This document shows positions 37,064 to 50,994 of a stretch of DNA of 64,000 nucleotides, one piece after another. Position numbers and translations under genes: made by a program. The stretch is from Gammaproteobacteria bacterium (lineage in GTDB: Bacteria > Pseudomonadota > Gammaproteobacteria > DRLM01): assembly GCA_023266095.1 (NCBI GenBank), contig JAHFRV010000006.1, positions 1 to 64,000 of the forward strand, written 5' to 3'. Numbering within the stretch: position 1 is the first letter of the stretch; every line of letters starts with the position of its first letter. Below the pieces are notes generated by a model. The model was not told where the DNA came from. It did no database searches and worked only from the letters and a program-made list of their open reading frames with translations.

Positions 37064-38071
37064 TCAGCAAATGCGCGGCAGCGCTTCCTCGTCCAGCGGC
37101 TCGATCAAACGTTCGCCGCCGATACGGGTTTCCAATACCACCGCGGAGGTTTCTTCGGTCAGCCTGCCGATCAGCGCCGCCTGTTCGCCGCCGGGTGTTG
37201 CGCGCAAGGCCCGCAGCGCCTGTTCCGCCGCCGCGGCCTCGACGACGGCGACGAGGCGGCCTTCGCAGGCGAGTGTATAGGGATCGAAACCTAAGATGTC
37301 GCACACTGTGCGCACCGCGGCGCGGATCGGGATGTCCGCCTCGCGCACCCGCGGCGTGAGGCCGGTGGCCGTGTGGATTTCATGCAGCACCGCGGTGAGA
37401 CCGCCGCGGGTCGGATCGCGCATGAAACGCAAGCCGGGCAGAGGCAATAACGCGCGGGTGAGGGGTAGGATACTGGCGGCGTCGGAGAGCAGATCGCCGC
37501 GCAGGCCGAATTCCTCGCGCGCCAGCATCACCGCCGCGCCGTGGTCGCCGACCGGGCCGCTCACCAGGATGGTATCGCCCGCGCGGATTTCTTCCAAACC
37601 CAATCGCGTTGCGCTGTCACGCAGACCGATGCCGGAGGTCGCGAGATAGAGGCCGCTGGCCTCGCCGCGCCGCACGACTTTGGTGTCGCCGGCGGCGATA
37701 CGCACCTCGCAGGCGAGTGCGGCGCGGTGTATGCCCTGGACGATGCGTTCCAATTGAGCAAGCTCCAGCCCCTCTTCCAGAAACACGTTGAGGCTGAGAT
37801 ACAGCGGTGTGGCGCCGCACACCGCGAGGTCGTTGACCGTGCCGTGCACCGCCAGCGAGCCGATGTTGCCGCCCGGAAATTCCAACGGCTGCACGGTGTA
37901 GCCGTCGGTGGTGAAGACCAGTTCACCCGCGCCGCGCGCGATGGGCAGCACGACCGCGTCGTCGCGGCAATTGAACAGACGGTCGCCGAGATGATGGGCG
38001 AAGACCTCTTCGATCAGGCGGCGCATGCGCGGGCCGCCGTTGCCGTGGGCGAGGCTGATGCGTTCGCTCAT
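37064..38071 (-). CDS. hypE: Hydrogenase maturation protein HypE
   Basis: 335 residues; dehydrates the S-carboxamide that HypF places on its C-terminal cysteine to a thiocyanate, the source of the cyanide ligands of [NiFe] sites. It starts at MSERISLAHGNGG, the normal HypE N-terminus, overlapping the hypF stop as ATGA. The AIR-synthase-like core (LVFTTDGYTVQPLEFPGG, AAGDTKVV) and the C-terminal PRIC, whose last residue is the carrier cysteine, are intact. Last gene of the minus-strand hyp operon. Confidence 0.97.
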   Translation of the reverse strand: MSERISLAHGNGGPRMRRLIEEVFAHHLGDRLFNCRDDAVVLPIARGAGELVFTTDGYTVQPLEFPGGNIGSLAVHGTVNDLAVCGATPLYLSLNVFLEEGLELAQLERIVQGIHRAALACEVRIAAGDTKVVRRGEASGLYLATSGIGLRDSATRLGLEEIRAGDTILVSGPVGDHGAAVMLAREEFGLRGDLLSDAASILPLTRALLPLPGLRFMRDPTRGGLTAVLHEIHTATGLTPRVREADIPIRAAVRTVCDILGFDPYTLACEGRLVAVVEAAAAEQALRALRATPGGEQAALIGRLTEETSAVVLETRIGGERLIEPLDEEALPRIC

Positions 38072-40362
38072 GCGTCGTGCAGCGGGCACACCGCGGCGGC
38101 TTCGATGATCTGGCCGTAACTGAGGCCGCCGTCATTCATCGGCATCGTCCGCGGCAGATAGACGCGAAAACCTTGCTGCATGAGCAGGGCACTGGCGCGT
38201 GCACTGAGCCGTCTGTTTTGGAAGACACCGCCACTCAAGCCCACCGCGAAATCGCCGTGCCGCACCCGCACCGCGTTGGCCTGATCGACGATGAGCCGCG
38301 CCAGCGCCTCATGAAAACGCGCCGCGCGCATCGCCGTGGTCTGCGTCCCGTCCAGCAGCATCGGCAACAAATCTTGCCAATCGCCGCGCAACACGCCGTC
38401 TTCATCCGGCTGCAATGCCAGTGACGGAGTGTCGTCAACCGAGGTTTCGCAAGTCGCCGCCAGCGCCTCCAGCACCATCGCGGCCTGGCCTTCATAACTC
38501 GCGTGCTGTATCACGCCGAGCAGGCTCGCGGCGGCGTCGAACAGACGGCCCGCCGCGCTGGTCCACGGGCTGTTGATGTCTAGTCGCCAGGCACGGTGCA
38601 GCAAGGCCATGCCGTCGGGTGCGTAGGGAACGGCGCGATCCGTTTGCCAGCACAACGCGGCGGCGCTGCGCCATGGTTCGCGCGCCGCAGGTTCGCCGCC
38701 GGGCAGACGATAGCGGCGCAGACTGGCGACGCGCCGCCATGCGCCGGGCCGGCCGAGCAAGGCCTCGCCGCCCCACAACGTGCCGTCCTCGCCGAGGCCG
38801 ACGCCGTCCCAGGTGAAGACCAGCCAGCGCGCTTCATGCGGATATTCACCGGCGAGCACGCCGGCGTGGGCGTGATGGTGCAACACGGTGGTGACGGGCA
38901 GGCCGCATTGTTGCGCCCAATGGCGGCTGGCGTAGCGTGGATGCGCATCGCAGATAACGGCCGCCGCTTCCACCGCATACAAGGCTTGCAAGTCCGCTAT
39001 CGTTCGCGCGAATACGCGCAGGCTGCGCGGGCTGTCGAGTTCACCGATGTGCGGCGAGATCACCACGCGATCACGCCAAGCGAGTGCGACGGTGTTTTTC
39101 ATATGTCCTCCGACCGCCAGCAGCGGTGCGGCGAGCGTGAACGGCAGCGTGAGTTCCAGCGGCGCATCGCCGCGGCCGAGGCGCAGCGGCCGCGCGGCGC
39201 CGGCGATGCAGCGATAGACGGCATCATCAACGGGACGCGCGATGGGTCGGTCGTGATGCAGGAAGGCGTCGGCGATTCCGGCGAGCCGCGATTCCGCCTC
39301 GTCGTTGTCGCCGATCACCGGTTCGCCGCTGAGGTTGCCGGAGGTGGCGACCAGCGGCGCGCCGAAGGCATCGAGCAGCAAGTGATGCAGCGGACTGTAA
39401 GGCAGCAGGACGCCGATCTCATCCAGACCCGGCGCGATAGTGTCGGGCAGCGGACACGCCGCGCCGCGCGGCAGCAGGACGATGGGCCGCGCGCTACCGC
39501 GCAACAAGGCGAGTTGTTCGGCATCGATACGCACGTAGCGTGCGAGCGTTGCGCGCGTCGCATCGTCGTCATCGGCGAACATCACCGCCAGCGGTTTGTG
39601 CGGTCGTGGTTTGCGTAAGCGCAGACGCGCGATGGCCTTTTCGTTGCGGGCGTCGCCCATCAGATGATAACCGCCGATACCTTTGATGGCGACGAGGCCG
39701 CCTTCGCGCAGCAGGGCGAGACAGGCGGCCAGCGCCGCGGCGTTGCCGGTGATCCGTTCCGTACCGTGATGGAAAGACCAGCGCGGGCCGCAGCGCGGGC
39801 AGGCGATGGGCTCGGCGTGAAAGCGGCGATCGGCGGGATCGAGATATTCGCGGCGGCAAGCGGGGCACAACTCGAATCCCGCCATGGTGGTATTGGCGCG
39901 GTCGTAAGGCAGGGCGCGGATCAGGGTGTAACGCGGTCCGCACTGCGCGCAATTGATGAAGGGATAGCTGTGGCGGCGGTCGCTGACATCGCGCAATTCA
40001 TACAGACACGCCGCGCAGGTCGCGAGGTCGGGCGGCAGGTGGATGTCGGCGTGTTCTAATGCTTCGCTGAGGCGGATGGTGAAATCGCAGAGATTTTCTA
40101 ACGCAACCTCGCGGACCTCGGCGATCAGCGGTTCCGCCGGCGCCGGTGCCTCAGCTATCAGTGCAGCTTGAAAGCTATCGAGCGCACGCGGCTCGCCTTG
40201 TACATGCACGTTCACCGTACCACGCCGATTAATCACCCAGCCCTGCAAACCATGACGCTGCGCGAGGCGGAACACGTAGGGCCGGAAACCCACGCCTTGC
40301 ACCCGGCCGTGCACATGCAATAGCCGCGCGTGGACTGGCGGCTCGGGTTGCGCGTCGCTCAT
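38068..40362 (-). CDS. hypF: Carbamoyltransferase HypF
   Basis: 764 residues; converts carbamoyl phosphate to a carbamoyl-adenylate and transfers it to HypE. All four domains are visible: acylphosphatase-like (about 15-105, GRVQGVGFRPYVFRLA), two zinc fingers (CAACLYELRD, CAQCGPRYT, CPACRREYLD, CPRCGPRW), YrdC-like (about 195-375) and a C-terminal Kae1-like domain (HHHAHAGVLAGEY, FAVGLSGGVFQNR). Start taken at MSDAQPEPP, which overlaps the hypD stop as ATGA; the longer frame reads inside hypD. Confidence 0.96.
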   Translation of the reverse strand: MSDAQPEPPVHARLLHVHGRVQGVGFRPYVFRLAQRHGLQGWVINRRGTVNVHVQGEPRALDSFQAALIAEAPAPAEPLIAEVREVALENLCDFTIRLSEALEHADIHLPPDLATCAACLYELRDVSDRRHSYPFINCAQCGPRYTLIRALPYDRANTTMAGFELCPACRREYLDPADRRFHAEPIACPRCGPRWSFHHGTERITGNAAALAACLALLREGGLVAIKGIGGYHLMGDARNEKAIARLRLRKPRPHKPLAVMFADDDDATRATLARYVRIDAEQLALLRGSARPIVLLPRGAACPLPDTIAPGLDEIGVLLPYSPLHHLLLDAFGAPLVATSGNLSGEPVIGDNDEAESRLAGIADAFLHHDRPIARPVDDAVYRCIAGAARPLRLGRGDAPLELTLPFTLAAPLLAVGGHMKNTVALAWRDRVVISPHIGELDSPRSLRVFARTIADLQALYAVEAAAVICDAHPRYASRHWAQQCGLPVTTVLHHHAHAGVLAGEYPHEARWLVFTWDGVGLGEDGTLWGGEALLGRPGAWRRVASLRRYRLPGGEPAAREPWRSAAALCWQTDRAVPYAPDGMALLHRAWRLDINSPWTSAAGRLFDAAASLLGVIQHASYEGQAAMVLEALAATCETSVDDTPSLALQPDEDGVLRGDWQDLLPMLLDGTQTTAMRAARFHEALARLIVDQANAVRVRHGDFAVGLSGGVFQNRRLSARASALLMQQGFRVYLPRTMPMNDGGLSYGQIIEAAAVCPLHDA

Positions 40363-41498
40363 GTGCGGCCCCGTGCCTGTGTCGCGCGCACGCCGCCGCG
40401 CCACCAGATGCGGCAGGCCCCTTCGTCCGACACCATACACGGTCCCACTGGTTGTTGCGGTGTGCAGGCTTTGCCGTACAGCCGGCAGGCGTCGGGGTAG
40501 ATGCGGCCCAATACCACCGCGGCGCAGTCGCAGCCGGGCGGCATTTCGCCGGCGCGGCGGCGCGCCTGTTCATCGATGGGGAAATGCTGTTCCGCGTCGA
40601 GGTGCCGGTATTGTTCGTTCAAACTGAAACCGGAGCGCGGGATCACGCCGATGCCGCGCCAGTGGCTGTCGCTGACGTCGAACACCTGCCGCAGCAGACG
40701 CTGCGCGGTGAGGTTGCCGTGGATATTGACGAGTTCGGGATAACAATTGTCGAGGCGCGCCGTGTGTTCGGCGGCTTGTTGCAAGGTGGCGTAAAACGCG
40801 GCGAGCAGACTCTCGGCGCTGAAACCGGCGACCGCGGTGGGCAGGCCGTGCCGTTCCGCAACGAAGCGCCATTGCTCGCTGCCCATGATGGTGGCGACGT
40901 GGCCGGGCGCGACCAGCGCGTCGAAGGCCGCGCCGCCGGCGGCGAGCAGCATCGCCACCGCCGGCCAGGTGAGGCGGCCGGAGATCAGCAGCAGTAAATT
41001 AGCGGGCAGGTTTTCGGCGATCATCGCCGCGACCGGCGCCATGGTCGTCTCGAAACCGGCGGCGAAGAACACGACTGTTTTGTCGGGATGGCGCCGCGCG
41101 ATGGCGTGCGCCTCCAGCGGCGAGGCGATGGCGCGGATGTCGGCGCCCGCGGTGCGCGCCTGCTCCAGCGAGCGTGGCTCCGGTTTGGAGGTGTTCACCG
41201 GTACGCGCAGCAGGTCGCCGAAACAGACGAGGAGGATGGGGTGACGCAAGGCCATCTGCATGGCGGTGTAGATATCTTCCTCGGGGCAGATGCACACCGG
41301 GCAGCCGGGGCCGGGGATGAGTTCGATGTACTCTGGCAGCGCGGCGCGCAGGCCGCTGTGGCTGATGCTGCGTTCGTGACCGCCGCAGACGTTCATGATC
41401 CGGAAGCGTCCGCGCGGCGGCAGGGCGTGCAGGCGCCGCAGCCAGTCTTGCGCGCTGCCCTGCATCTCAAGTGCGCCGCGGCGCATGGACGTTGTCAT
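40359..41498 (-). CDS. hypD: Hydrogenase maturation protein HypD
   Basis: Up to 379 residues; with HypC it forms the complex that assembles Fe(CN)2CO. The core holds the essential cysteine motifs CGGHERSISHSG, GPGCPVCICPEEDI and the late GCDCAAVVLGRIYPDACRLYG cysteines around its [4Fe-4S] cluster. Two starts are possible: ATG at 41498 (overlapping hypB by 32 bases) and ATG at 41465, one base after the hypB stop. The second is what tight coupling would predict; neither has a clear ribosome site. Confidence 0.95.
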   Translation of the reverse strand: MTTSMRRGALEMQGSAQDWLRRLHALPPRGRFRIMNVCGGHERSISHSGLRAALPEYIELIPGPGCPVCICPEEDIYTAMQMALRHPILLVCFGDLLRVPVNTSKPEPRSLEQARTAGADIRAIASPLEAHAIARRHPDKTVVFFAAGFETTMAPVAAMIAENLPANLLLLISGRLTWPAVAMLLAAGGAAFDALVAPGHVATIMGSEQWRFVAERHGLPTAVAGFSAESLLAAFYATLQQAAEHTARLDNCYPELVNIHGNLTAQRLLRQVFDVSDSHWRGIGVIPRSGFSLNEQYRHLDAEQHFPIDEQARRRAGEMPPGCDCAAVVLGRIYPDACRLYGKACTPQQPVGPCMVSDEGACRIWWRGGVRATQARGRT

Positions 41499-42231
41499 GC
41501 CGATACCGCGATGATTCTATAAGGCTGGCGCGCAACCAGCCGCACCAATCCTGCATGCCCGCACCGCTTTTGGCGGAGAGGCTGAACACCGGTGCCGGAT
41601 TGGCGAGCTCGCGTAAACAGCCTTCGGCGCGCGCGGGGTCGAAATCGTCGAGCAGCGGCAGCAGATCAGACTTGCTGAGCAGCAGGAGGTCGGCGGCGCG
41701 GAACATCACCGGGTATTTGGCGGGTTTGTCGTCGCCCTCGGGCGTGGACAACAACACGACATTGCGATGCTGGCCCAAATCGAAACTCGCCGGGCACACC
41801 AGGTTGCCGACGTTTTCGATGAACAGCAGGTCGACACCGGTGAGATCCAGCTGTCGCAGGGCGGTGTGTACCATGCGGGCGTCGAGATGGCAGGCGTTGC
41901 CGGTGGTGATTTGCACCGCGGGTATTCCGTGAGCGCGCAGACGCCGCGCGTCGTGGTCGGTGGCGAGGTCGCCCTCGATCACCGCCATGGTGAATTCACC
42001 GCGCAGCATGTCGGCGCTTGTGGCCAGCAGCGCGGTTTTGCCCGCGCCGGGCGAGGACATCAGGTTGAGGACGAGCACGCCTAGTGTGTCGAAGTGGCGG
42101 CGATTGCGCTGCGCCTGTTGGTCGTTGTCGGCGAGCAGGCCGCGCAAGATCGTGGTCGCCCGGCCAGGTAGCGGAGGCGCGACATCACTGGTTATGGCGG
42201 GAGCGAGTTGGCAGCCGCAGTCACCGCACAT
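41467..42231 (-). CDS. hypB: Nickel-insertion GTPase HypB
   Basis: 254 residues; GTPase that with HypA delivers nickel to the hydrogenase large subunit. The N-terminal CGDCGC high-affinity nickel motif is present, with no histidine-rich stretch, so it is a delivery and not a storage form. The P-loop is SSPGAGKT at about 58-65 and the G-domain metal residues lie in TGNACHLDARMV; NVGNLVCPASFDLG is also conserved. It overlaps hypA by 11 bases. Confidence 0.96.
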   Translation of the reverse strand: MCGDCGCQLAPAITSDVAPPLPGRATTILRGLLADNDQQAQRNRRHFDTLGVLVLNLMSSPGAGKTALLATSADMLRGEFTMAVIEGDLATDHDARRLRAHGIPAVQITTGNACHLDARMVHTALRQLDLTGVDLLFIENVGNLVCPASFDLGQHRNVVLLSTPEGDDKPAKYPVMFRAADLLLLSKSDLLPLLDDFDPARAEGCLRELANPAPVFSLSAKSGAGMQDWCGWLRASLIESSRYRHDNVHAPRRT

Positions 42232-42601
42232 GGGCGCGTTCCTCGGCGGCTGGCGCCGCCATGATGAATTCCACGTCCCGCAGCAGCAGTTCGTCGCCGC
42301 TGATGAGTTGGGTGCGCCAATCGTCGCACTGGCGGCAGCGCAACTGATTAAGGCTGACCTCGCTGATCGCGCCGCAGCCCTGGCAGCGTACTCGCAGCGG
42401 AGTCTCTTCGATGTCGAGGATGGCGCCGGCGGCGAAGCTGTCGCGGCTGCTGAGCGGAAAGGCCGTGCGTAATAAGGCGATCTCCACCCCCGCGAGCGGG
42501 CCGATGGTGAGACGGATGCGGCTGACGCCGCGTGCCTGATGTTGCGCCGCCAGCCGGCTCACCTGGTCGAGGAGGGCGCGGCAGAGCGAGAGCTCATGCA
42601 T
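42221..42601 (-). CDS. hypA: Nickel metallochaperone HypA
   Basis: 126 residues. The N-terminal MHELSLCRALL supplies the Met1-His2-Glu3 nickel site; the zinc site is two CxxC pairs, CQGCG and CRQCD, at about 74-95. It works with HypB in nickel insertion. It overlaps hypC by 8 bases, fitting a single hypCABDFE transcript. Confidence 0.95.
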   Translation of the reverse strand: MHELSLCRALLDQVSRLAAQHQARGVSRIRLTIGPLAGVEIALLRTAFPLSSRDSFAAGAILDIEETPLRVRCQGCGAISEVSLNQLRCRQCDDWRTQLISGDELLLRDVEFIMAAPAAEERAHVR

Positions 42602-42833
42602 GAGGGCGGGTCTCGTCTTTCAATAAGGTGCCCACCAGGTCGAGGACATCACGGGCGTAGGCGCGGTCGATTTTCTGGATGGCGTAACCCACGTGTACCA
42701 ATACATAGTCGCCCGGCTCGATCGCGCCATCCTGCAACAGGAACAGACTCACTTCGCGCTCCACGCCGCCGGTCTGGCAGCGGGCGCGGTGGCCGTCGAT
42801 GGCGATGATCTGCATGGGAATGCCGAGGCACAT
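42594..42833 (-). CDS. hypC: Hydrogenase assembly chaperone HypC
   Basis: 79 residues beginning MCLGIPMQI. Cys2, exposed after removal of the initiator methionine, binds HypD and the Fe(CN)2CO unit and holds the large-subunit precursor. GDYVLVHVGYAIQKID is the family's second signature. The start at 42833 is fixed by the invariant MC(L/I)(G/A)(I/V)P N-terminus; the upstream frame is not coding. First gene of the hyp operon, 135 bases from the start of the divergent hydrogenase operon. Confidence 0.95.
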   Translation of the reverse strand: MCLGIPMQIIAIDGHRARCQTGGVEREVSLFLLQDGAIEPGDYVLVHVGYAIQKIDRAYARDVLDLVGTLLKDETRPHA

Positions 42834-42968: not shown

Positions 42969-44081
42969 ATGAACCAGGTATTGAGCTATCTGCCGCGCCC
43001 AGACTTACAGGTGTTGATCGAGACCTTGCAGGCGGCGGGATTTCACTGCGTCGGTCCGCGGGTGGTCGACGGCGCGATCGGTTATGGCGCGTTGGATGAT
43101 GCGGCGCAATTGCCGTGGGGCGTGACGGAGATGCAGGCGCCGGGCCACTACCGTCTGTCCGATTCCGATACACCGCGTTGTTTCGCCTGGGCCAATGGCC
43201 CGCAGGCGTTGAAGCCGTTTCTGTTCGCCCCGCGGGAAAATTTATGGACTTCACGGCGCGAGGCGGATGGCGGGCTGCACTGCGATGAGACCCTGCCCGA
43301 GGCGATGCCGCTGGCCGTGATCGGCGTGCGGCCCTGTGACCTCGCCGCCCTCGCCCTGCACGATCAACACTTCTTGCGGCAAGCGGTGTCCGATCCCTAT
43401 TACGCGCGGCGCCGCGAAGCGCTGTTTCTGGTGGCGGTGAATTGCACCCATCCCGCCGCCACCTGTTTCTGCGTCTCCACCGGCGACGGGCCGCGCGCGA
43501 CCTACGGTTACGACCTCGCCCTCACCGAGCTCGATGACGGCTATCTCGTGGAAGCGCACAGCGAGCGCGGCCGCGCCATCGCCGCGGTATTGCCGCTGGC
43601 AGCGGAGGAGGAGGCGCAGGTCGCGGCGGCCGATGTTGCGCTGCAGCAGGCCGCCGACAGTCAGACGCGCCGTCTGCCCGGCACGCATCTGCAAGCGCCG
43701 CTGTTCGCCAATTTGAACCATCCGCGCTGGGACGAGGTGGCGGAACGCTGCTTGAGTTGCGGCAACTGCACCTCGGTGTGTCCCACTTGTTTTTGTTACA
43801 GCGCCCACGACCAGCCGACCCTGGCCGGCGACCTGGTCGAACATTATCGCGAGTGGGATTCCTGTTTCACCCAGGGCCACAGCTACATCCACGGCATCAC
43901 CCTCCGCGCCGAGACCGCGCCGCGTTACCGCCAGTGGCTCACCCACAAGCTCGGCAGCTGGCACGCGCAATACGGCCGTTCCGGCTGCGTAGGTTGCGGC
44001 CGCTGTATCGCCTGGTGCCCGGTCGGCATCGACCTCACCGAAGAGGCGGCGGCGATCTGCGGCGAGGTCGCGCCGGCATGA
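42969..44081 (+). CDS. hydB: Group 3b [NiFe] hydrogenase beta subunit (Fe-S, 4Fe-4S dicluster)
   Basis: 370 residues; Fe-S subunit of the cytosolic NADP-linked bidirectional hydrogenase (sulfhydrogenase type), wiring the small subunit to the flavin subunit. Two ferredoxin-type cluster sites are visible: CLSCGNCTSVCPTCFC (about 261-276) and CVGCGRCIAWCPVG (about 340-353). The N-terminal two thirds resembles the HydB/AsrA family (GVRPCDLAALALHDQHF). AGGAG lies 7 bases before the ATG. The stop overlaps hydG as ATGA. Confidence 0.93.
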   Translation: MNQVLSYLPRPDLQVLIETLQAAGFHCVGPRVVDGAIGYGALDDAAQLPWGVTEMQAPGHYRLSDSDTPRCFAWANGPQALKPFLFAPRENLWTSRREADGGLHCDETLPEAMPLAVIGVRPCDLAALALHDQHFLRQAVSDPYYARRREALFLVAVNCTHPAATCFCVSTGDGPRATYGYDLALTELDDGYLVEAHSERGRAIAAVLPLAAEEEAQVAAADVALQQAADSQTRRLPGTHLQAPLFANLNHPRWDEVAERCLSCGNCTSVCPTCFCYSAHDQPTLAGDLVEHYREWDSCFTQGHSYIHGITLRAETAPRYRQWLTHKLGSWHAQYGRSGCVGCGRCIAWCPVGIDLTEEAAAICGEVAPA

Positions 44082-44911
44082 GCAATCCCTATCCGCCGCG
44101 CGAGGCCCGCATCGTCGAGCGTATCCAGGAATCGTCCGGCCTGTTCACGCTGCGTCTGCAACTCACCGACTCAGCCATGCAAGGTGATTACCGCTTTGCG
44201 CCGGGTCAGTTCAATATGCTTTATCTGCACGGCGTCGGCGAAGTCGCGATCTCCATCGTCTCCGATCCCAGCGATGAACACCTTATCGACCACACCATCC
44301 GCGCCGTGGGCCGCGTCACCCGCGGACTGGAACAACTCAAGGCGGGTGAGCGTATCGGCCTGCGCGGGCCGTATGGGCGCGGCTGGCCGCTCAGTGCGGC
44401 CGAGGGTCGTGATGTGGTGGTGGTCACTGGCGGCCTCGGCTGTGCCCCGGTGGTGTCGGTAATCAATTACATCGCGCGCCGCCGCGCGCGTTTCGGCCAT
44501 CTCAATATCGTGCAGGGCGTGAAACACAGCAGCGATTTGATCTGGCGCGAACGCTATGCAGAGTGGCGCGCGCTGCCCGACACGCTAGTGCTGCTCGCCA
44601 CCGACGCCGGCGAACCCCTGTGGCCCTGGCATATCGGTCGCGTCACCGATCTTTTCGATCGCTTGCAGTTCGATCCGCAGCGCGCCAGCGTGATGATGTG
44701 CGGGCCGGAGGGCATGATGCGCGCGGTGGTCAACCACATGCGGGCGGCGGGGGTGGCCGATACCGATATCTGGCTCAGCATGGAGCGCAATATGCAATGC
44801 GCGCTCGGTCACTGCGGCCATTGCCAATACGGCGACAAGTTCATCTGCCGCGACGGGCCGGTGTTCAGTTTCGATCAGGTCGCGGCGCTGTTCGACGTGC
44901 CGGGGTTTTGA
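44078..44911 (+). CDS. hydG: Group 3b [NiFe] hydrogenase gamma subunit (FAD/NAD(P) reductase)
   Basis: 277 residues of the ferredoxin-NADP reductase type: FAD-binding barrel (APGQFNMLYLHGVGEVAISI), NAD(P)-binding fold (VVVVTGGLGCAPVVSVI) and a C-terminal [2Fe-2S] site CALGHCGHCQYGDKFIC near 240-256. This is the architecture of HydG/AsrB and dihydroorotate-oxidase electron-transfer subunits. In group 3b enzymes it exchanges electrons with NADP(H). The ATG at 44078 overlaps the hydB stop. Confidence 0.93.
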   Translation: MSNPYPPREARIVERIQESSGLFTLRLQLTDSAMQGDYRFAPGQFNMLYLHGVGEVAISIVSDPSDEHLIDHTIRAVGRVTRGLEQLKAGERIGLRGPYGRGWPLSAAEGRDVVVVTGGLGCAPVVSVINYIARRRARFGHLNIVQGVKHSSDLIWRERYAEWRALPDTLVLLATDAGEPLWPWHIGRVTDLFDRLQFDPQRASVMMCGPEGMMRAVVNHMRAAGVADTDIWLSMERNMQCALGHCGHCQYGDKFICRDGPVFSFDQVAALFDVPGF

Positions 44912-44913
44912 GC

Positions 44914-45705
44914 ATGAATAACAAACCGCGGGTCGCCGTGCACAAGTTCAGCTCCTGCGACGGCTGCCAGCTCGCCTTTCTCAATCTCGGCGAAGCCTTG
45001 CTGGAGCTGGCCGAATTGGTCGACTTCGCGCATTTCCTGGAGGCGGGTTTCGTTGACGCGGCGGCGCAAGTCGATATCGCCTTCATCGAAGGCAGCGTCT
45101 CGACGCCGGATGACGCCGCGCGCCTGCTGGCCATCCGCGCCAACAGCCGGTATCTGATCACCATCGGCGCCTGCGCCACCGCCGGCGGCGTGCAGGCGCT
45201 GCGCAATCTCGCCGACGCCGCCGCGTGGACCGCGGCGGTGTACGCGAGTCCCGAATTCATACACAGCCTCGCCACCTCGACACCGATCCGCGCCCAGGTC
45301 AAGGTCGATCTCGAGTTGTGGGGCTGCCCGGTCAATAGTCGTCAGGTGATCGCGGCGATCCGCGCGCTGTTGTTCGGCGTGGCGCCGGTGACGGAGAACG
45401 ACAAGGTCTGCATGGAATGCAAGCGCCGCGGTAACGTCTGTGTGCTGGTGGCGCGCGGCGAGCCGTGTATGGGGCCGGTGACGCGCACCGGCTGCGGCGC
45501 CTTGTGTCCGAGTTTCGGCCGCGATTGTTATGCCTGTTATGGGCCGGCGGAAAACGTCAACGGCGCCGCACTCGCCAACCGTTTCATCGGGCTGGGGCTG
45601 GCGCCGGCGGAGGTGGCGCGGCGTTTCCTTTCCATCAACAACGCCGCGCCCGAGTTCAATGCCGTCGGCCGCGCCTGGCAAAAGGCGGAGCCGCATGATG
45701 GATAA
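44914..45705 (+). CDS. hydD: Group 3b [NiFe] hydrogenase delta (small) subunit
   Basis: 263 residues; small subunit carrying the proximal and further [4Fe-4S] clusters. The proximal-cluster motif SSCDGCQLAF is at the N-terminus, with GACATAGGV and WGCPVN further on; the C-terminal half has CMECKRRGNVC, CMGPVTRTGCGALCP and CYACYGP. No Tat signal, so it is cytosolic, as group 3 requires. It begins 2 bases after the hydG stop and overlaps the large-subunit start. Confidence 0.94.
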   Translation: MNNKPRVAVHKFSSCDGCQLAFLNLGEALLELAELVDFAHFLEAGFVDAAAQVDIAFIEGSVSTPDDAARLLAIRANSRYLITIGACATAGGVQALRNLADAAAWTAAVYASPEFIHSLATSTPIRAQVKVDLELWGCPVNSRQVIAAIRALLFGVAPVTENDKVCMECKRRGNVCVLVARGEPCMGPVTRTGCGALCPSFGRDCYACYGPAENVNGAALANRFIGLGLAPAEVARRFLSINNAAPEFNAVGRAWQKAEPHDG

Positions 45706-47572
45706 ACGCGAGATCAAGATCCACGTGCCGGCGCTGGCGCGGGTGGAGGGCGAGGGCGCGCTCGATCTCCACATCCACGACGGCGCGATCGCGGCGTTGC
45801 AACTGCGCATCTACGAGCCGCCGCGTTATTTCGAGCAATTGCTGGTCGGGCGCGACTACACCGAGGTGCCCGATCTGGTGGCGCGCATCTGCGGCATCTG
45901 TCCCGTCGCCTATCAGATGAGCGCGGTGCAGGCGTTGGAAAAGATCATCGGTTACACGCCGCCGCCCTGGCTGCAGGCGCTGCGGCGGGTGATGTATTGC
46001 GGCGAGTGGATACAAAGCCACAGCCTGCACATCCACATGCTGGCGGCACCGGACCTGCTGGGCTTCGACAGCATCACGGCGATGGCCACGCAGTACGGTA
46101 ACGAGGTTCGCCGCGGCCTCCTGCTGCAAGGACTGGGCAATGCATTGATCGAATTGCTCGGCGCGCGCTCGGTGCACCCGGTGGGGGTGAAGGTCGGCGG
46201 CTTTCATCGTCTCCCGAGCTACGAAGAGCGCGAGGCGCTGCGCCGGCGCCTGCTCGCCGCCTTGCCGCAGGCCGCGGCGCTGCTGCGCTGGACGGCGACG
46301 CTGCCGCTGCCGGACGACGATCAGGATTTCGTCTGCTTGGCTTTGCGGCACGGCAGCGACTACCCCATGCAAGGTGACCGCTTGGTCTCCACCAGCGGCT
46401 TGGATATCGATATCGAGGAGTTCGAGCAGCACATCATCGAACAGCAAGTGCCGCATTCCACCGCGCTGCACGCCCTGCTGCACGGCGAGCCTTATCTGCT
46501 GGGGCCGCTGGCGCGGCTCAATCTCAACGGCGATCGCCTGCCGCCCGCGTTGCGCGCGATCTTGGCTGACCTCGGCGTCCGCTTTCCGAGCCGCAATATG
46601 TTTCACAGCATCGTCGCCCGCGCCGCGGAGATCTGGCTGGCGCTGCACGAGGCGGCGCGGCTGCTGGCGTGGGATAGCGAAGCCGAGGCGCCCGTGTGTC
46701 CGACGCCGCTGCCGCGCGCGGGTACTGCCGCCGGTTGTACCGAGGCGCCGCGCGGGATGTTGTGGCACCGATATGAAATGGACGGACACGGCGCGATCAC
46801 GCGCGCGCGCATCGTGCCGCCCACCAGCCAGAATCAGGCGCGCATCGAGGCGGACCTGCGCGCGAGCTTGACGCGCTTCGGTCTCGATCGGCCGGAACAG
46901 GCGATTCGCCTCCGCGCCGAGATGGTGATCCGCAACTACGACCCCTGTATCTCCTGCGCCACCCATTTTCTGAAGCTGCGTGTCGCGCGCGATGCGACCG
47001 GGCAAACGACCCGCTCACCCGCGCTTGCGCGGCGGGTGGTGGTATTGGGCGTGGGTACGGAACACGCGGGTGACGACGTCGGCCTGCGCCTGATTGAACG
47101 GCTGCGTGATGACGCCGCACTCGCGCCGTACCTCGCGCGCGGTCGTTTGATGCTGCATGCCTGCCGCCAGCCCATGCTGGATTGGCCGCGCTGCGTGCGT
47201 GAGGGTGATAGTGTGTTCATCATCGATGCCTTGCGGGCGGCGGCGGCCGATGGTCTGCGCATCATCGACGGCGCGGCATTGGCGGACGCCGGGCGAGCCT
47301 TGTCCAGTCATGCGCTGGGCGTCGGTGATGCGCAGGCCTGGCCTGCTGCGGTGGGGCAGGTGGCGGCGGATGTCACAGTGCTGGGTGTCCGGATCGATGC
47401 GGCGAAGTCGCCACCGGACGCCGTGTCATTGACCCGCTTGGTCGAGCAGGTCCGCGAGCGGCTGCTGGCCCGCTTGCCCGGTGAGTCACCCTCTGTCGAG
47501 TACCTCGCCCAGGAACGATCCCACACCGGAAACACCGCTGCTAGCGCCGGAACAACCAGAACAACAAGGTGA
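45695..47572 (+). CDS. hydA: [NiFe] hydrogenase large subunit fused to its maturation protease
   Basis: 625 residues in one uninterrupted frame. Residues 1-424 are a normal group 3b large subunit: L1 motif RICGICPVAYQ near 62 (Tyr where many NiFe enzymes have His) and L2 motif DPCISCATH ending at His424, the expected cleavage point. Instead of a short tail, the chain continues through a linker into an M52/HycI-HybD-like protease domain (about 448-590): VVVLGVGTEHAGDDVGLRLIE, FIIDALRAAAADG and SSHALGVGDA carry the three residues (Asp, Asp, His) that bind the C-terminal nickel region in this protease family. No separate protease gene is present. The first ATG at 45695 or 45698 may be used. The last 20 residues are low complexity and overlap a convergent gene. 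Confidence 0.88.
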   Translation: MMDKREIKIHVPALARVEGEGALDLHIHDGAIAALQLRIYEPPRYFEQLLVGRDYTEVPDLVARICGICPVAYQMSAVQALEKIIGYTPPPWLQALRRVMYCGEWIQSHSLHIHMLAAPDLLGFDSITAMATQYGNEVRRGLLLQGLGNALIELLGARSVHPVGVKVGGFHRLPSYEEREALRRRLLAALPQAAALLRWTATLPLPDDDQDFVCLALRHGSDYPMQGDRLVSTSGLDIDIEEFEQHIIEQQVPHSTALHALLHGEPYLLGPLARLNLNGDRLPPALRAILADLGVRFPSRNMFHSIVARAAEIWLALHEAARLLAWDSEAEAPVCPTPLPRAGTAAGCTEAPRGMLWHRYEMDGHGAITRARIVPPTSQNQARIEADLRASLTRFGLDRPEQAIRLRAEMVIRNYDPCISCATHFLKLRVARDATGQTTRSPALARRVVVLGVGTEHAGDDVGLRLIERLRDDAALAPYLARGRLMLHACRQPMLDWPRCVREGDSVFIIDALRAAAADGLRIIDGAALADAGRALSSHALGVGDAQAWPAAVGQVAADVTVLGVRIDAAKSPPDAVSLTRLVEQVRERLLARLPGESPSVEYLAQERSHTGNTAASAGTTRTTR

Positions 47573-50377: not shown

Positions 50378-50677
50378 TTAAGCTGGCATCGCGGGAACGG
50401 CCTTTTTCTTGGAGGCTCGCTTCTTTGAAGCCGCTTTCTTTTTACCGGCCTTTTTCTTGCCAGCCTTCTTTTTACCGGCCTTTTTCTTGCCGGCTTTCTT
50501 TTTACCAACCTTTTTCTTGGCAACCTTTTTCTTAGCGGCTTTTTTCTTGCCAGCCTTTTTCCGGGTTGCCTTTTTGGCGGTGGCCTTCTTGGCTACCACC
50601 TTCTTGGTGGTGGTTTTCTTCGCAGCTGACTTCTTCTTTGAAGTCACTTTCTTCTTCGTGGCTTTCTTTGTTGCCAT
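50378..50677 (-). CDS. Lysine/alanine-rich histone H1-like protein
   Basis: 99 residues, nearly all Lys and Ala with some Gly, Val and Thr, built of KKAGK/KKxAKK-type repeats (for example KKKAGKKKAGKKKAGKK). It is the bacterial histone H1-like/AlgP type, expected to bind DNA non-specifically and possibly to shape the nucleoid. The start at 50677 (MATKKATKKK) follows a strong GGAGGAATCACA site. Repeat number likely varies among strains, since the DNA is a direct repeat of GGC/CTTTTT units. It precedes its own terminator. Confidence 0.8.
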   Translation of the reverse strand: MATKKATKKKVTSKKKSAAKKTTTKKVVAKKATAKKATRKKAGKKKAAKKKVAKKKVGKKKAGKKKAGKKKAGKKKAGKKKAASKKRASKKKAVPAMPA

Positions 50678-50994
50678 TGTGATTCCTCCGTTGTGAACGT
50701 AGCGTTCGCTACTAAGTATAAACAACTTCTTTAAAAAACAAAGAGCGTTTATTCCAAAAGACTATCGAACGATTTTGAACATTCCTTTAGGGCCCGGCGG
50801 TGTGTGTGATGAATTCGCATGAGAGAGAGGCGACGCGATGGTGGTTTTTTACCATCGCCGCCATCTAAAAACGCCAACGAAACATGCTTGAGTGAGGTGA
50901 TAAAAGGCGTGCGAAACGGAAGGCGAACACTGTGGTGGGTGCGGGCCGTATTGCGCGTTTTTCTCGGGGAAAACGCGGTTTTCTAATGTGCCGC
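50678..50994. promoter_or_regulatory. Gene-free interval with the upstream region of the H1-like gene
   Basis: The 317 bases contain the ribosome site of the H1-like gene, a 6-bp inverted repeat GTAGCG-TT-CGCTAC at 50699-50712 just upstream of it, and an AT-rich stretch near 50712-50760 with a minus-strand TATACT. The repeat lies about 25 bases before the start codon, where it could be an operator or a leader hairpin. Nothing else is recognisable up to the EVE gene. Confidence 0.45.

Follow-up and report, generated by a model that had tools for sequence, protein, structure and literature searches.

In the biology of [NiFe] hydrogenases, it has long been asked how a maturation protease finds its one large subunit and how it senses nickel. 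The peptide that is cleaved off is apparently not the main element by which the protease recognizes its substrate (PMC5299533, PMC7654741). In the group 3b enzyme SHI of P. furiosus, the hydrogenase is inactive unless a HybD-like protease removes the last four residues (PMC2865534). The extension is not essential in the Cupriavidus MBH and some hydrogenase groups have none (PMC7294309), so there may be cases in which an enzyme can do without cleavage. Here we describe a group 3b-type large subunit that carries a maturation protease of its own behind the expected cleavage site. Our search of the open literature found no natural fusion of this kind.

The gene lies in a 64,000-nt stretch of DNA, hereafter the window, from a Gammaproteobacteria bacterium (DRLM01; GCA_023266095.1, contig JAHFRV010000006.1, positions 1 to 64,000). 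Translation of 45695-47572 on the plus strand gives a single frame of 625 residues with no internal stop, and the neighbourhood reads as follows.

37064..42830, minus strand: hypC, hypA, hypB, hypD, hypF and hypE, divergent maturation genes that make up the full cofactor machinery
42969..44081, plus strand: iron-sulfur subunit (beta-like)
44078..44911, plus strand: FAD/NAD(P)-binding subunit (gamma-like)
44914..45705, plus strand: hydrogenase small subunit (sulfhydrogenase delta-like)
45695..46966, plus strand: group 3b-type [NiFe]-hydrogenase large subunit, residues 1-424, with RICGIC as the N-terminal and DPCISCATH as the C-terminal motif
46967..46993, plus strand: FLKLRVARD, residues 425-433, which fits the 9-residue extension F-L-x-L-x-V-x-R-x of unfused relatives
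46994..47035, plus strand: linker between the extension motif and the protease domain, residues 434-447
47036..47479, plus strand: HybD/HycI/HoxW-type maturation protease domain, approximately residues 448-595, from profile, ligand alignment and Foldseek
47072-47074, 47225-47227 and 47309-47311, plus strand: metal-ligand equivalents Asp460, Asp511 and His539, from alignment
47480..47569, plus strand: low-complexity C-terminal tail of about 30 residues
47570-47572, plus strand: TGA stop of the fused gene

The identity of the large subunit is supported by profiles, structures and gene order. Residues 7-428 match the NCBIfam models of the group 3b alpha subunit (ShyA/HydA; E 1e-76 and 3e-73), with scores under the equivalog cut-offs of these archaeal models, and the best PDB matches are group 3b alpha subunits (5yxy, 9nez). 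Both CxxC motifs, RICGIC and DPCISCATH, are found, and genes for the small, FAD/NAD(P) and Fe-S subunits accompany the large subunit. The His of DPCISCATH is residue 424, the expected cleavage point, and 201 residues lie beyond it. The extension motif FLKLRVARD is kept, and the protease domain then follows where a stop would be expected, with 27 residues from His424 to the first protease Gly-x-Gly. Among the hyp genes, a separate protease gene is absent; it is the sole accessory gene missing as a gene of its own. The earlier note had stated that the locus holds no other protease gene, and neither the hyp cluster nor the operon contains a separate one. The low-complexity tail is longer in the window copy and is mostly missing from the two closest fused relatives. 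Further along the window (50378-50725, minus strand), we also observed a small lysine/alanine-rich protein with KKKAGKKKA repeats, of histone H1-like type.

The C-terminal domain belongs to the HybD/HycI type of maturation proteases by several lines of evidence. Residues 449-591 match the hydrogenase maturation protease model TIGR00072 (NCBIfam, E 1.7e-8), at 34.6-37.7 bits against a curated cut-off of 47.45, which the fused copies of G062, G135, G141 and G136 pass. Pfam HycI matches 8 of the 10 fused homologues, the window copy not being among them, and a profile made from the tails of all ten fused proteins recovers E. coli HybD (1cfz, E 9e-11). The full-length AlphaFold model (pLDDT 39) was too poor for judging geometry and was not used. 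Foldseek with a model of the domain, itself of medium confidence (pLDDT 63), ranks HybD/HycI structures first, with 5ija and 5zby as best matches and 1cfz among the others, and thus points to a HybD-like alpha/beta fold. The domain has diverged in the window lineage, with 25% identity to the separate protease of the unfused locus L004.

All three metal ligands are conserved. The D/D/H trio, equivalent to the ligands E16, D62 and H93 of HybD, is present in 10 of 10 fused and 70 of 70 separate proteases; for the relation to HybD itself, we verified the match with PDB entry 1cfz. Identity among the ten fused tails falls to 17% and few columns are invariant (F1, L2, L4, G30, D36, L46, P69, D87, A88, S113, S114 and H115), the three ligands among them. 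As F1, L2 and L4 are invariant along with the ligand columns, conservation extends to the cleavage site as well as to the catalytic part. The FLxL of the extension, invariant in 10 of 10 fused proteins, is also nearly invariant among unfused relatives. Pairs of fused domains have a pN/pS of 0.35-0.59, within the range of separate-protease pairs (0.07-0.85). The earlier note had read GDDVG, IIDALR and SSHALG as nickel-binding-type motifs; one correction concerns GDDVG, whose first Asp is the ligand equivalent Asp460 and whose second Asp is not conserved in fused homologues. Several fused copies have an altered version (RQP, NNP, PAP) of the DRPG-like loop that many separate proteases carry. A tethered protease may need less stringent substrate recognition, but the loop is missing from some separate proteases too.

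We surveyed the window's class (369 genomes, with matches in 128) and read 88 large-subunit loci that contain the C-terminal motif. Ten of these are fused and 78 unfused. The fusion of a large subunit to a maturation protease, claimed at first from the window alone, thus extends to nine further genomes, and the ten fused genomes fall under seven family codes (f1, f132, f153, f58, f137, f131 and f78). Unfused relatives have 7-20 residues after the His, exactly nine in 58 of 78. A separate protease gene lies nearby on the same strand in 69 of the 78 unfused loci, usually directly downstream, and in none of the 10 fused loci, within the stretch fetched for each. The commonest arrangement, found in 30 unfused loci, is a 4-base overlap of the large-subunit stop with the protease gene, as in L004, where the protease starts inside the large-subunit stop (ATGA). 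Three unfused loci (L048 and L049, of G262 and G357, and L076, of G240) have unusual extensions of 17-20 residues, and no protease was found near them. Outside the class, we sampled 398 genomes across the phylum; 28 of them had matches, none with a fusion, and none of 38 matches in plasmid records covers 80% of the query. Long open frames at protease matches in the phylum sample and elsewhere were rejected: wherever both genes were readable, these proved to be shadow frames out of register with them, with G320 as the exception.

Because the usual layout is two overlapping genes in different frames, a single indel could join them, and a sequencing or assembly error had to be considered. One locus does look like such a joining error: in L110 (G320:C184:2500-5500), which is fusion-like by open-frame length, subunit and protease are in a common frame from which DPCISCATH is displaced into a different one, so that this is probably a frameshift in a draft genome and makes a useful negative control. 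In the window and the nine other genomes, by contrast, DPCISCATH and the protease share one frame, the linkers vary in length and sequence by whole codons, and one case (G136) is a single-contig genome. The fused frame recurs, at 77% identity and with only whole-codon indels, in an independently sequenced member of the genus, so the junction is not an assembly error. The earlier note had named a stop codon or frameshift near the junction as one finding that would speak against the fusion; none appears in this genome or in the other fused ones, and for the fused set we consider an error so improbable that it can be set aside.

It is less clear how often the fusion arose. In the large-subunit tree, the fused copies form three groups: the window with G002 and G136; G362 alone; and G062, G141, G135, G082, G310 and G208. 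A single fused group appeared in 0 of 200 bootstrap trees. However, one fused clade is not rejected by the AU test (p = 0.226), and in the quick tree analysis the tree holding the fused copies together scored even better; for these reasons, we do not firmly claim that the fusion arose three times independently. The unfused G003 and G004 belong to the window's own family, and the next fused relative, G136, stands under another family code, which suggests that the hydrogenase operon was transferred. In four unfused loci (L045, L088, L091 and L099, of G115, G154, G265 and G393), subunit and protease are in the same frame, parted by a stop or a few bases, a layout in which loss of the stop could fuse both genes.

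We also asked, with family profile searches, whether the genomes encode a second protease. The window genome has one [NiFe] large subunit, the only other match being weak (E 0.2), and the searches detected no second protease gene. Against the possibility raised earlier of an inactive fused copy served by a protease from elsewhere in the genome, none was detected there and the active-site residues of the fused copy are intact. In G002, G136, G062 and G082, too, the family searches detected no large subunit and no protease besides the fused ones. The remaining five fused genomes (G362, G141, G135, G310 and G208) each have an extra large subunit with a strong Pfam match and exactly one extra, stronger protease match, the two on the same contig in four of the five. 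Score and length lead us to infer that this extra large subunit is of group 1. Weaker PF00374 matches on the same contig in G310 and G208 may be further relatives. The six-frame search with TIGR00072 missed the window's own fused domain, and two control genomes without a fusion (G262 and G240) gave no match either. A diverged second protease may therefore exist, and the silence of the searches is good, imperfect evidence.

Taken together, the protein is probably a bifunctional precursor: after nickel insertion, its protease domain would cut behind His424 and thereby free itself. The fusion, the intact extension, the intact metal ligands, the selective constraint on the protease domain and the lack of any other protease in our searches all come from sequence; we infer from there to the cleavage, its dependence on nickel, the cis geometry and the release of the domain. 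The Hyp proteins from the adjoining genes would insert NiFe(CN)2CO while the C-terminal extension keeps the active site open. With nickel in place, the tethered protease would cut after His424, before Phe425; the large subunit would then close, and the free protease would leave with the old extension and the linker at its N-terminus. The cut is probably intramolecular, as 22-23 residues separate the scissile bond from the domain's first strand, enough to loop back and so permit cutting in cis. Cutting between neighbouring molecules would yield the same products. The boldest reading, a little less likely than not, is a self-processing precursor in which a nickel-triggered intramolecular cut acts as a one-to-one, one-shot switch, arisen maybe up to three times.

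It is less likely that the fused protease works mainly in trans, with the tethered or released domain cutting other precursors and the fusion fixing only dose and delivery. It shares self-processing with the intramolecular explanation and differs in geometry. The first cut would release a free active domain able to act in trans, nothing in the sequence speaks against this, and every known relative cuts in trans. On the data in hand, cutting in trans would be as compatible as cutting in cis. The linkers from the His to Gly-x-Gly are of similar reach across the fused groups (26-36 residues), which fits tethering and tells weakly against the trans reading.

It is improbable that the extension instead stays on the mature enzyme, with the protease domain in a structural or regulatory role or as a vestige. 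Some [NiFe] groups do mature without a cleavable tail (PMC7294309), but the metal ligands and the FLxL tail are invariant here, selection is as on free proteases and, in P. furiosus, the group 3b enzyme becomes active only after the cut (PMC2865534). An internal start (GTG, residues 448-449) yielding a free protease as a second product is very unlikely. The window copy, L006 and L009 each have an in-frame GTG shortly ahead of the protease domain; the fused L022 and L041 have no ATG, GTG or TTG between the His and Gly-x-Gly, no clear ribosome-binding site precedes the internal start codons that exist, and such a start would leave the fused product in place. We rejected it as not conserved across the fused genes.

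From a practical perspective, a natural covalent pair sets substrate and enzyme at one to one, and the fusion makes nickel-triggered cutting measurable within a single polypeptide. Mutation of a ligand in the fused protein could yield a trapped enzyme-substrate complex. Where group 3b hydrogenases are to be expressed, the fusion could also be a compact building block that spares the additional protease gene. In annotation, naming the protein a large subunit by homology would conceal its second domain.

The locus can finally be placed beside the systems it resembles. The beta-gamma-delta-alpha operon is the same as in group 3b SHI, and the large subunit aligns over its entire length with the P. 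furiosus SHI precursor (HydA/ShyA; 9nez, 5yxy), as far as the final residue of the latter, so the window protein extends beyond the point at which the known precursor ends. Known precursors and the unfused relatives in our set end 4 to about 20 residues past the His, whereas the window protein adds 201, with a protease among them. Its protease shares the fold and three metal ligands of the HybD/HycI/HoxW/FrxA endopeptidases (1cfz, 5ija, 2e85); unlike these separate proteins of about 150-165 residues, which act in trans, it is attached behind the expected cut site. Both parts are well known; the architecture that joins them appears to be new.
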